Assembly (NCBI GenBank): GCA_027308685.1
Contig: DAIDEE010000067.1
Coordinates: forward strand, 1 to 64,000
DNA length: 64,000 nucleotides
Source: Acidocella sp.
GTDB lineage: Bacteria; Pseudomonadota; Alphaproteobacteria; Acetobacterales; Acetobacteraceae
Direction of reading: 5' to 3'
Shown here: piece by piece, positions 1 through 2,712 of the stretch
Layout of the letters: every line of letters starts with the position of its first letter
Position numbering within the stretch: position 1 is the stretch's first letter
Position numbers and translations under genes: made by a program
The notes under the pieces: model-generated
What the model was told of the DNA's origin: nothing
The model's input: the letters and a program-made list of their open reading frames with translations, nothing else
Databases searched by the model: none

Positions 1-786
1 CTGATATTCTTTGTCCGTCAGCGTCAGGGCCGGCGCGACCGTGATAGAATCGCCGGTATGCACGCCCATCGGGTCGATGTTTTCAATCGAGCAGATGATG
101 ATGCAATTGTCGTTTTTGTCGCGCACCACCTCCATCTCATATTCTTTCCAGCCGAGCACGGATTCTTCCACCAGCACTTCATCGGTGGGAGAGGCATCAA
201 GCCCCGAGGCCACGATCTCGAAAAATTCCTCGCGTTTATAAGCAATGCCGCCGCCGGTGCCGCCGAGCGTGAAAGAAGGCCGGATGACGGCGGGCAGGCC
301 GACAAGTTCCAAGGCCGCCGCTGCTTCTTCGCGGTTATGCGCAATCGCGGATTTTGGTCCGGCGATGCCGATTTCGGCCATGGCGTCACGGAATTTCAAG
401 CGGTCCTCAGCGCGGTCGATCACATCAGCCTTCGCGCCGATCAACTCCACGCCCAGCCGTTCCAGCGTGCCGGATTTCGCCAGCGACATGGCGGTATTCA
501 GCGCGGTTTGCCCGCCCATGGTAGGCAGCAGCGCATCAGGCTTTTCACGGATGATGATTTTCTCCACCATCTCCGGCGTAATCGGCTCGATATAGGTGGC
601 GTCCGCCAACGACGGGTCAGTCATGATGGTGGCGGGATTAGAGTTTACCAGAATCACCCGGTAACCCTCCTCGCGCAACGCCTTGCAGGCCTGGGCGCCG
701 GAATAGTCAAACTCGCAGGCCTGGCCGATGACGATCGGCCCTGCGCCGATGATCATGATGGATTTTATGTCGGTGCGTTTGGGCAT
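1..786 (-). CDS. carB: Carbamoyl-phosphate synthase large subunit, N-terminal part (runs off the window)
   Basis: The first 262 codons of CarB lie here; the rest is outside the window. CarB makes carbamoyl phosphate from bicarbonate, ATP and ammonia delivered by CarA, feeding arginine and pyrimidine synthesis. The translation opens [20 protein letters not shown], the standard CarB start, followed by [11 protein letters not shown], the [13 protein letters not shown] segment, and the ATP-grasp part with [15 protein letters not shown]. It follows carA on the same strand after a 63-base gap that holds a REP-like palindrome, so the two are probably cotranscribed. No break is seen in the visible part. 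Confidence 0.96.
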
Positions 787-849: not shown

Positions 850-2178
850 TCAGGCCATCATCTCGACGAAGCGTTTGAACAGGTAGGATGAGTCGCTCGG
901 CCCCGGTGAGGCTTCCGGGTGGTACTGCACCGAAAATACCCGTTTGGCCTTGCAGGCGATGCCTTCGTTGGATCCATCGAACAGGCTCTTATGCGTCACG
1001 TCCACGCCCGCCGGTAGTGAGGTTTCATCGACGGCAAAGCCATGGTTTTGCGAGGTGATTTCCACCTTGCCAGTGATCAAATCCTGCACTGGCTGATTGG
1101 CGCCGCGATGGCCGCGCTCGAGCTTGTAGGTTTTACCACCCAAAGCTGTCGCTAGTAGCTGATGGCCCAGACAAATCCCAAAAATCGGCACACCGGCAGC
1201 CATCACGCCCTGAATGGCGGGTACGGCATATTTGGCAGTCGCCGCTGGGTCGCCGGGGCCATTGGAGAGGAACACGCCATCAGGTTTGTGGCGCAGGATA
1301 TCCTCAACGTTGGAGGTAGCAGGCACCACGATCACCTTGCAGCCGGCCGAAGCCAGGCTGCGCAGAATATTGCGCTTGGCACCGTAATCGACCGCCACCA
1401 CCAGCTTGCTGGTATCGGGGGCGGCAAAGCCGCCCTCCCAACTCCAGGTGCCAGCGCTCCATTCGTAGCTCTGGGTGCAGGAAACTTCGCGGGCGAGGTC
1501 CAACCCGTCCAGCCCACCCCAGGCTGCCGCCCTGGCAGCCAACGCAGCCAGGTCAAACTTACCGTCAGCGGGGTATGAAAGCACGGCGTTCGGTGCGCCA
1601 AGGTCGCGGATACGCAATGTGAGGGCGCGGGTATCAACCCCCGCGATGCCCGGAATATTCTGCTTTTTCAGCCAGGTATCGAGGTTGCTGGTGGCGCGGT
1701 AGTTGGAAGGTTCGGTCGGGTCCTGCCCGGTTACCAGCCCGCGGGCCGCGATGCTGAAGGCTTCCAAATCTTCATCGTTGGCACCCACATTACCGATATG
1801 CGGGAAGGTAAAGGTAATAATCTGCCCGGCAAACGAGGGGTCGGTGAGGGTTTCCTGATAGCCGGTCATGCCGGTGGAGAAGCACAGCTCAGAGGGCTTG
1901 CTGGTGCCATGCGCCCCAAAACCGCGCCCCCAGAACACCGTGCCATCAGCCAAAACCAGGGCGGCGGTGGCGCCGGGCGGGGTGTCGGTTTCCATGGCGG
2001 CTCCTGGCAAATCTTCGATGTTTAATCCGGTTGCAGCCATAATCGCCGGCCAATGGCGCGTGGGAATCGCGTTAGCGCTGCGCCATTTGCGTATCGCTTC
2101 GGGCGAAACCCCTGTTAGAGTGGCGGCAGCATCCGTGCCGCCAAGACGGTCTAGTAGGTCGGTGATGGATATTGGCAT
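850..2178 (-). CDS. carA: Carbamoyl-phosphate synthase small subunit with N-terminal helix-turn-helix domain
   Basis: CarA is the glutamine amidotransferase subunit that passes ammonia to CarB. From about residue 72 (ALVLADGTVFWGRGFG) the protein is an ordinary CarA. The class I GATase domain carries the catalytic Cys in GICLGHQ and the His/Glu of QYHPEASPG. Residues 1–58 are extra: ITDLLDRLGGTDAAATLTGV, then SPEAIRKWRS and IPTRHWPAIMAATGL, which reads like a compact Cro/YdaS-type helix-turn-helix. I recall an NCBI domain model named carph-isopro for such heads on CarA and isopropylmalate isomerase subunits, but could not check. The long start (2178) has no Shine-Dalgarno; an internal ATG at 1995 has AGGAG five bases upstream and would give the usual 381-residue CarA. 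Both products may be made. It is divergent from yqeY. Confidence 0.93.
   Translation of the reverse strand: MPISITDLLDRLGGTDAAATLTGVSPEAIRKWRSANAIPTRHWPAIMAATGLNIEDLPGAAMETDTPPGATAALVLADGTVFWGRGFGAHGTSKPSELCFSTGMTGYQETLTDPSFAGQIITFTFPHIGNVGANDEDLEAFSIAARGLVTGQDPTEPSNYRATSNLDTWLKKQNIPGIAGVDTRALTLRIRDLGAPNAVLSYPADGKFDLAALAARAAAWGGLDGLDLAREVSCTQSYEWSAGTWSWEGGFAAPDTSKLVVAVDYGAKRNILRSLASAGCKVIVVPATSNVEDILRHKPDGVFLSNGPGDPAATAKYAVPAIQGVMAAGVPIFGICLGHQLLATALGGKTYKLERGHRGANQPVQDLITGKVEITSQNHGFAVDETSLPAGVDVTHKSLFDGSNEGIACKAKRVFSVQYHPEASPGPSDSSYLFKRFVEMMA
1993..2005 (-). promoter_or_regulatory. Internal ribosome binding site and alternative ATG inside carA
   Basis: On the minus strand AGGAG (2001–2005) is followed by CCGCC and ATG (1993–1995), in frame with carA. 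Translation from here removes the helix-turn-helix head and leaves a protein of normal CarA length. The long start has no comparable ribosome binding site. Confidence 0.5.
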
Positions 2179-2184
2179 AAAAAT

Positions 2185-2213
2185 AGTGTATCGGAATTTA
2201 TTTCCGGGTTCAA
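2185..2213 (-). promoter_or_regulatory. Candidate carA promoter giving a leaderless transcript
   Basis: On the minus strand TTGAAC (2208–2213) and TACACT (2185–2190) are separated by exactly 17 bases; each matches the sigma-70 consensus at 4 of 6 positions. Six bases separate the -10 from the ATG at 2178, so the expected transcript begins at or beside the start codon. A palindrome fills the spacer. Confidence 0.45.
2192..2206. promoter_or_regulatory. Operator-like palindrome in the carA promoter spacer
   Basis: CGGAA-TTTAT-TTCCG is a perfect inverted repeat with 5-base arms and a 5-base centre. It lies between the candidate -10 and -35 boxes of carA, where a bound protein would block RNA polymerase. 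The helix-turn-helix head of CarA is a natural candidate ligand (inference). Confidence 0.4.
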
Positions 2214-2229
2214 TGTTTTTGTAAAAAAC

Positions 2230-2244
2230 CGGAATTACTGTCCG
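2230..2244. promoter_or_regulatory. Second copy of the CGGAA-N5-TCCG element
   Basis: CGGAA-TTACT-GTCCG repeats the 2192–2206 palindrome with one arm mismatch, starting 38 bp away. It ends 12 bp before the yqeY start codon, so a protein bound here could also affect yqeY. Confidence 0.35.
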
Positions 2245-2256
2245 AAGGGAAGACTG

Positions 2257-2712
2257 ATGAGTTTGCGTGAAGATATTACCGCCGCCGTAAAAACCGCCAT
2301 GCTGGCCCGCGATGCTGAGCGCACCTCCACGCTGCGGATGGTCCAGGCCAAACTGAAGGACACCGATATTGCGGCCCGCCCGAAGGGCATCACCGCCATC
2401 CCGGATGACGAGATTTTCGCCATGCTGCGCTCGATGATCAAATCCCGCCGGGACGCTGTGGCGCTGTACCGCCAGGGTGGCCGTGAGGAACTGGCTGTGA
2501 AGGAAGAGGCGGAAATACTTGTTATTGAAAAATTTTTACCGCAAACCTTGTCAGGCGATGCGCTTACCGCCGCTGTCGCCGCCGCCATCGCCGAAACCGG
2601 TGCCACCACCGGTAAGGACATGGGCAAAGTGATCGGCGCGTTGAAGGCCAAGCATGGTGCGGCGCTCGATATGGGCGCGGTCTCGGTGGCCGTGAAAGCC
2701 GCTCTTGGCTAG
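2257..2712 (+). CDS. GatB/YqeY domain protein
   Basis: A 151-residue protein of the YqeY family, related to the C-terminal tRNA-binding tail domain of the GatB amidotransferase subunit. Its own role is not firmly established. Typical features are the opening MSLREDITAAVKTAMLARDA, the TLRMVQAKLKD segment, IKSRRDAVALYRQGGREELA, EKFLPQTLS and the closing MGKVIGALKAKHG. A purine-rich GAAGGGAAGA precedes the ATG. It sits between carA (divergent) and dnaG, the usual place in alphaproteobacteria. Its 3' end overlaps dnaG by 8 bases, indicating translational coupling. Confidence 0.93.
   Translation: MSLREDITAAVKTAMLARDAERTSTLRMVQAKLKDTDIAARPKGITAIPDDEIFAMLRSMIKSRRDAVALYRQGGREELAVKEEAEILVIEKFLPQTLSGDALTAAVAAAIAETGATTGKDMGKVIGALKAKHGAALDMGAVSVAVKAALG

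Follow-up and report, generated by a model that had tools for sequence, protein, structure and literature searches.

The window analysed here is a stretch of 64,000 nucleotides from an Acidocella genome. It opens with the start of carB, the large-subunit gene (positions 1-786, minus strand; named by reading the sequence), which is probably cotranscribed with carA. The carA gene lies at 850-2178 on the minus strand, and its open reading frame and model matches describe a long form of 442 amino acids composed of a Cro-like head, a linker and the glutamine-hydrolysing small subunit of carbamoyl phosphate synthase. The ATG at 2178 is the first start codon downstream of the preceding stop in the carA frame. 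The protein scored 442.2 bits against the CarA model TIGR01368 (cut-off 307.35), and this match, together with alignment A3, places the enzyme part at residues 72-441 (856-1965, minus strand). Cys336, His420 and Glu422 are invariant in all 46 sequences of that alignment, and we take them to be the amidotransferase catalytic triad. By its sequence the protein is CarA, the glutamine-hydrolysing small subunit, with predicted enzyme activity. A yqeY-like gene (2257-2712, plus strand) diverges from carA and is followed by dnaG- and rpoD-like ORFs, all named by eye.

The linker between head and enzyme covers residues 58-70 (1969-2007, minus strand); residues 58-63 have pLDDT values below 50 in the full-length model, and its length varies among relatives. 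In three related loci (L077, L091 and L094) the linker is expanded into short in-frame repeats, SRAPEGGT in the case of L094, so the carA linker tolerates large changes in length. One relative (L089, genome G088) has a carA frameshift in a linker homopolymer, which is likely a sequencing error, although unproven. Another (L057, genome G033) has an in-frame TAG in carA, possibly also a sequencing error.

The original prediction, made from the letters alone, was that residues 1-58 form a helix-turn-helix-like head of the Cro/YdaS type, and this reading held. The head proper comprises residues 6-57 (2008-2163, minus strand). The NCBI carph-isopro model (NF046037), named in the original prediction as a check, matched the whole protein with 60.7 bits and the head alone with 65.3 bits, both above the cut-off of 38. 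The YdaS toxin family (PF15943; 24.0 bits for the head alone, 19.7 for the whole protein) matched weakly and under its cut-off of 30, and nothing observed indicates a toxin role. P22_Cro (PF14549; 22.9 and 18.3 bits) likewise stayed under its cut-off of 30.2. When a profile of 59 heads was compared with the PDB, it matched N15 Cro (2hin, E 5e-4), XPH1 (E 0.002) and Xfaso 1 Cro (E 0.003), and P22 Cro weakly (E 0.044). The AF2 model of the head has four helices with a mean pLDDT of 83.2, and these helices are retained in the model of full-length CarA. The nine best Foldseek matches of the head model in the PDB are all Cro proteins or the Cro hybrid XPH1, and include the Cro proteins of N15 (also on DNA, 6on0), Xfaso 1 and P22. 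Their TMq values of 0.67-0.77 and E-values of 0.021-0.093, none below 0.001, at a probability of 1.00, are modest for 59 residues. The predicted structure nevertheless upholds a Cro-type helix-turn-helix fold. A phage source for the head did not emerge by search: it gave just 4 matches in 50,697 phage records, all weak.

Homologous heads are widespread among relatives. Of 397 genomes in the family, 375 gave a match to the head profile (E <= 0.001), counted per genome and not each placed on CarA; two of the 375, G075 and G637, matched weakly. In comparisons of close pairs, synonymous and nonsynonymous substitutions in the head numbered 9 and 0 between the window and L145, 8 and 1 with L146, and 17.5 and 7.5 with L147. 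The few amino-acid changes in these pairs and the presence of the head in 375 genomes indicate that it is conserved as protein. Relatives of the head are encoded in 411 public genome stretches. The named genera among the best 80 of these are Acidocella, Acidiphilium, Rhodopila, Acidisoma, Acidicaldus and Acetobacter, and the closest to the window within the same 80 are two loci from Acidocella sp. MAGs (L145 and L146, head identity 100%). Across the class the profile matched 53 of 385 genomes, and none of 25 headed loci outside the family, drawn from 48 matching genomes, was a CarA. The window's own genome has a single match, the window CarA.

For the comparison of carA loci, 120 family genomes were parsed into 112 loci, of which 109 are headed and three are not (L094, which is cut at a contig end, L111 and L112). 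Eight genomes in which carA was missing or cut were left out (G006, G019, G026, G039, G065, G069, G075 and G110). A yqeY-like gene stands upstream of carA in 99 of the 109 headed loci, and is divergent in all 99.

Two palindromes lie between carA and the yqeY-like gene in the window. The candidate operator O1 (CCGGAA-ATAAA-TTCCGA; 2191-2207, minus strand) is 17 bp long and agrees with CCGGAA-N5-TTCCGG at 11 of 12 arm positions. It fills exactly the spacer between a -35-like TTGAAC (2208-2213, minus strand) and a -10-like TACACT (2185-2190, minus strand), which is followed by 6 nt and the ATG; the whole promoter reads TTGAAC-[CCGGAAATAAATTCCGA]-TACACT-ATTTTT-ATG. A strict generic sigma-70 scan called no promoter at the window carA. 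The weaker candidate O2 (TCGGAC-AGTAA-TTCCGG; 2229-2245, minus strand; 10 of 12) lies 38 bp upstream of O1. In the 200 nt upstream of carA, all 109 headed loci had a site scoring at least 10/12 against one of two consensus sequences (TGGGAA-N5-TTCCCA or CCGGAA-N5-TTCCGG), with best scores of 12 in 71 loci, 11 in 32 and 10 in 6. In 2180 shuffled sequences 67 reached at least 10, namely 62 at 10, 5 at 11 and none at 12. With TGGGAA-N5-TTCCCA alone, the best score over the same length was 12 in 70 loci, 11 in 26, 10 in 5 and 8-9 in 8, against none at 12, 1 at 11 and 25 at 10 in the 2180 shuffles. The signal is also seen without a chosen consensus: in the 100 nt upstream, 76 of 109 loci have an exact inverted repeat of 6 bp around a 5-bp spacer, where 2.6 were expected. 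Spacers of 3 and 7 were raised too (36 and 26), since the arms of a single palindrome can be counted as longer or shorter. Two palindromes are present in 88 of the 109 headed loci, and 60 of these 88 pairs are spaced 38-40 bp apart.

The loci fall into two classes. In class A (73 of 109, the window included) a site scoring at least 9/12 starts 28-31 nt ahead of the ATG, within the -35/-10 spacer; shuffled sequences gave such a site in 22 of 2180 cases. These sites are preceded by TTG (98, 93 and 93% for the three letters) and followed by a -10-like TA (61 and 90%), beyond which the -10 profile is loose. In class B (36 of 109) no site occupies the spacer position, and sites are kept upstream of a leadered start. 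The palindromes are specific candidate operators in the promoter of the headed carA gene itself, with binding predicted. The proposal that the CarA head ties the enzyme to transcription gains evidence from these dedicated palindromes, while binding by the head itself is inferred.

O2 was also considered as an operator of the yqeY-like gene. In class A its distance to carA is steady (mostly 65-73 nt) and its distance to yqeY varies; it tracks carA rather than yqeY, and an effect on yqeY would be at most a side effect. In the window O2 ends 11 nt short of the yqeY-like gene, and binding of CarA might touch the yqeY/dnaG/rpoD-like operon here.

Outside carA the sites are rare. Sixty family genomes contain 52 exact TGGGAA sites, spread over 40 genomes, and 48 of these lie within 200 nt upstream of carA, where carA starts were estimated if the gene came in two pieces; a reversed control pattern occurred in 6 places in all. 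Beyond the family, in 187 genomes of the class, exact sites numbered 20 and the reversed control 15, which is no clear enrichment. In the window's own genome CGGAA-N5-TTCCG occurs at 2 places, one of them carA, and is no commoner than the reversed control (6 places). The sole other exact site (L225, G000:C8:205784-205798) is within the number given by that control. A wider regulon was discarded on these counts, with one site off carA in the own genome and 4 of the 52 exact family sites off carA.

The sites also appear to disappear with the head. Twenty-two family genomes had no match to the head profile, of which 20 are named: G029 and G116, known beforehand, and 18 others, which were searched for CarA. 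G029 and G116, which belong to one genus, have a headless CarA behind an ordinary leader, and the carA-proximal site is absent. At the headless locus L111 the best site scores 10 and lies more than 700 nt upstream. Among the 18 other genomes only G590 had a CarA that reaches its start, 4 had fragments and 13 had no CarA match. The CarA of G590 is headless and its best site score within 600 nt is 9. It is nearest to that of L107 (72.8%), and upstream sequence is common to L107 and the Acetobacter farinalis locus L218. There appear to have been two separate losses of the head (G029/G116 and G590), both without sites, which suggests that the sites go with the head.

The palindrome arms tend to vary with the recognition helix, in which RKW[RK] is followed by Gln in 102 loci and by Ser, His, Thr or Ala in the other 7. 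CGG-type arms fit better in 7 of 7 non-Gln loci, against 3 of 102 Gln loci (5 ties). A larger set of 189 loci, which counts some genomes twice and is secondary to the 109-locus figures, gave 39 of 39 against 4 of 150 (8 ties). On the tree there are 4-5 residue changes and 8 operator changes with a single independent pair on well-supported branches, so the covariation is consistent with recognition by the head but does not reach statistical significance.

The gene has two possible starts. The absence of a Shine-Dalgarno sequence ahead of the long start (ATG, 2176-2178, minus strand), noted in the original prediction, was confirmed. The ATG at 1995 also proved as described there: this codon (Met62; 1993-1995, minus strand) would give a plain CarA of 381 residues and is preceded by AGGAG (2001-2005, minus strand), with 5 nt between. 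The long start lacks a Shine-Dalgarno sequence in 71 of 73 class A loci and has one in 24 of 36 class B loci. Such sequences precede 50 of 79 ATGs in the linker, compared with 9 of 295 in-frame ATGs in the enzyme, 1 of 61 in the head and 79 of 1182 out-of-frame ATGs. The difference between linker and enzyme ATGs has a Fisher p of 4e-32, a value that overstates the certainty since the loci are related. Among the 108 in-frame loci (L089 left out), 56 have an internal start (ATG, GTG or TTG) backed by a Shine-Dalgarno sequence, 20 have an ATG without one and 32 have neither. The AGGAG-ATG arrangement is common to the window, L145 and L146; L147 has AGGAA, and the 17 other related loci compared lack it. 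These sequence patterns mark the internal start as a genuine signal in many lineages, the window's included. As 32 of 108 loci do without it, two forms of CarA are not a general need. The expectation that both starts would be conserved in relatives was borne out in part: both are conserved signals, but the internal one depends on lineage.

The promoter in the window would start the mRNA at ATG 2178 itself, which would explain the missing Shine-Dalgarno sequence there, and a leaderless carA mRNA is predicted for 73 loci from the hexamers and their spacing; the proposal of ATG 2178 as first codon is inferred from the promoter position. Gluconobacter is a member of the same family as the window, Acetobacteraceae. 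In Gluconobacter oxydans, the main text of a transcript study describes 61 leaderless mRNAs, nearly all with ATG, and this text contains neither carA nor carbamoyl (PMC5756330).

The same kind of head was found on GlmU, PyrB, HisZ, CoaBC and Ccr in other families. The scores of NF046037 (cut-off 38) were above the cut-off on PyrB (38.9) and Ccr (61.3) and below it on HisZ (35.0 and 27.1) and CoaBC (24.8), and on headed GlmU the model was not among the best 25 families. A Cro-like head with aspartate carbamoyltransferase (PyrB) was seen at L132, L232, L233 and L234, with an upstream palindrome. In one order, each of 3 headed PyrB loci had a palindrome about 60 nt ahead of the start, its arms 7-8 long and its spacer 5 bp. 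None of 6 headless PyrB loci of that order had one with arms of at least 7 and this spacer; two of the headless loci (L235 and L237) had GC-rich inverted repeats of other geometry. Headed HisZ was seen in another order (L131, L241-L255, also L138). Paired ATTCAT-N5-ATGAAT-like sites, exactly 39 bp apart and located at -21 to -24 and -60 to -63 before the start, were present in 15 of 15 loci (L241-L255; 15 of 16 counted), which are close kin with AT-rich genomes, are all headed and are enriched in spacers of 1, 3 and 6 too. Three unrelated headed enzymes have palindromes of similar size, with differing arms, just upstream. The PyrB and HisZ palindromes suggest that phage repressors were recruited on more than one occasion to regulate enzymes from within.

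Other headed proteins gave less regular pictures. The carph-isopro head on crotonyl-CoA carboxylase/reductase (Ccr) was seen at L128 (scanned) and, by likeness, at L130, L135 and L257-L283. A GTGTTG-N5-CAACAC site scoring at least 11/12 was present in 5 of the 23 upstream regions counted among 28 loci (shuffles, 1 of 460); with a clear palindrome in these 5 alone, from some genera, Ccr was rejected as a clean replicate. One locus each of GlmU (L120) and CoaBC (L141) has a Cro-like head and an upstream palindrome of other geometry. The head also occurs on long, seemingly coiled-coil or membrane-bound proteins (L123, L129, L136, L139, L140, L142 and L143), and no enzyme family scored above its cut-off in the three that were scanned (L123, L129 and L136).

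We consider it quite probable that CarA, through an acquired phage-type Cro head, regulates its own carAB promoter in a sequence-specific manner, and that this regulation is probably repression. Two heads, joined by oligomers of CarA or CarAB, would occupy one 17-bp palindrome, whose arms of 6 and spacer of 5 would place the arm centres 11 bp apart, about one helical turn. Since O1 lies between the -35 and -10 hexamers, its occupancy should block RNA polymerase, and O2, usually 38-40 bp further up, would aid cooperatively. The long regulator form would be translated from a leaderless mRNA starting at ATG 2178, and the same mRNA would yield plain CarA from the internal ATG 1995 with its Shine-Dalgarno sequence. 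UMP, ornithine and IMP are ligands of the E. coli enzyme. In the window protein the state of assembly of CarA, or ligands, may set DNA binding.

Blocking between -35 and -10 cannot hold everywhere, since 36 loci have no site in the spacer and 24 of them have long starts backed by a Shine-Dalgarno sequence. The head might instead bind the same sites and activate, or alternate between activating and repressing, O2 being one possible point of action. O2 lies about 66 bp ahead of the presumed start, a distance at which class I activators can bind; the class B loci also retain sites upstream of a leadered start. One site falls in the -35/-10 spacer in 73 of 109 loci, the typical position of a repressor, and we give activation only a small chance. 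Another regulator might bind the palindromes while the head serves some other purpose, for instance keeping subunits together. Elsewhere in the class, similar heads do sit on proteins without an enzyme match (three scanned). This second reading seems distinctly improbable to us: 48 of the 52 exact sites lie at carA, the sites are lost along with the head and tend to track its recognition helix, and the palindromes of headed PyrB and HisZ differ in their arms.

The 6-5-6 geometry would also fit an RNA hairpin with a 6-bp stem and a 5-nt loop in the 5' leader, controlling translation or termination, and a scan flagged O2 as terminator-like. The class A site, however, is upstream of the predicted transcription start, loss of the head removes the site and the 38-40 bp spacing is kept in 60 of 88 pairs, which makes a hairpin very improbable. 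That the internal start alone is used, leaving the head an untranslated relic, is scarcely credible. The internal AGGAG-N5-ATG is admittedly the better ribosome site, yet close pairs and the matches in 375 of 397 genomes show the head to be conserved as protein, an internal start is missing from 32 of 108 loci, and a Shine-Dalgarno sequence precedes the long start in 24 of 36 class B loci. Regulation of carAB by CarA is the reading that we prefer.

Arginine and pyrimidine synthesis both draw on carbamoyl phosphate. The whole family appears to have a regulator built into CarA. Dedication of the operators to carA would reduce the circuit to one protein and one promoter, and the palindromes beside headed PyrB and HisZ point to a likely function for the named domain carph-isopro. 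The paired starts, with a leaderless regulator and an enzyme led by a Shine-Dalgarno sequence, could couple translation conditions to the ratio of regulator to enzyme. More tentatively, and with considerable doubt, Alphaproteobacteria may repeatedly have placed Cro heads on enzymes (CarA, PyrB, HisZ and perhaps Ccr, GlmU and CoaBC), each repressing its own gene through its own palindrome, which for CarA and HisZ comes in pairs spaced by about 39 bp. The oligomeric state and ligands of CarAB would then set carAB transcription, and internal initiation would give an enzyme that does not repress.

The window head matches NF046037, for which no function or operator was found described. The name carph-isopro suggests that the curators had seen the domain on carbamoyl phosphate synthase, and since the model exists the CarA fusion itself is probably known to them. 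In the open-access literature, which misses most subscription journals, neither the term carph-isopro nor a DNA-binding head on CarA or these operators was found. Self-regulating enzymes are already known, and the new part is the palindromes of the carA promoter. The Cro repressors of lambdoid phages (N15, Xfaso 1 and P22) share the profile and the predicted fold of the CarA head, and phage Cro operators are palindromic. In the window, in contrast, a housekeeping enzyme bears the Cro head, which apparently serves the promoter of that enzyme alone. PutA and BirA are enzymes that regulate their own operon with a DNA-binding head in the same chain, of the ribbon-helix-helix type in PutA and of the winged-helix type in BirA. 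Window CarA is like them in that sequence and predicted structure give it a domain of DNA-binding fold fused to an enzyme. It differs in that its head is of the Cro type and that the internal start in many lineages could release plain enzyme. For E. coli, PMC6245113 describes carAB as under several separate regulators, one of which is the trigger enzyme PepA, a repressor of carAB. The likeness to PepA is that of an enzyme repressing carAB, repression by window CarA being our proposal. PepA, as presented in PMC6245113, is an aminopeptidase for which regulation is a second and unlinked function, whereas here the product of carAB itself carries the DNA-binding domain.
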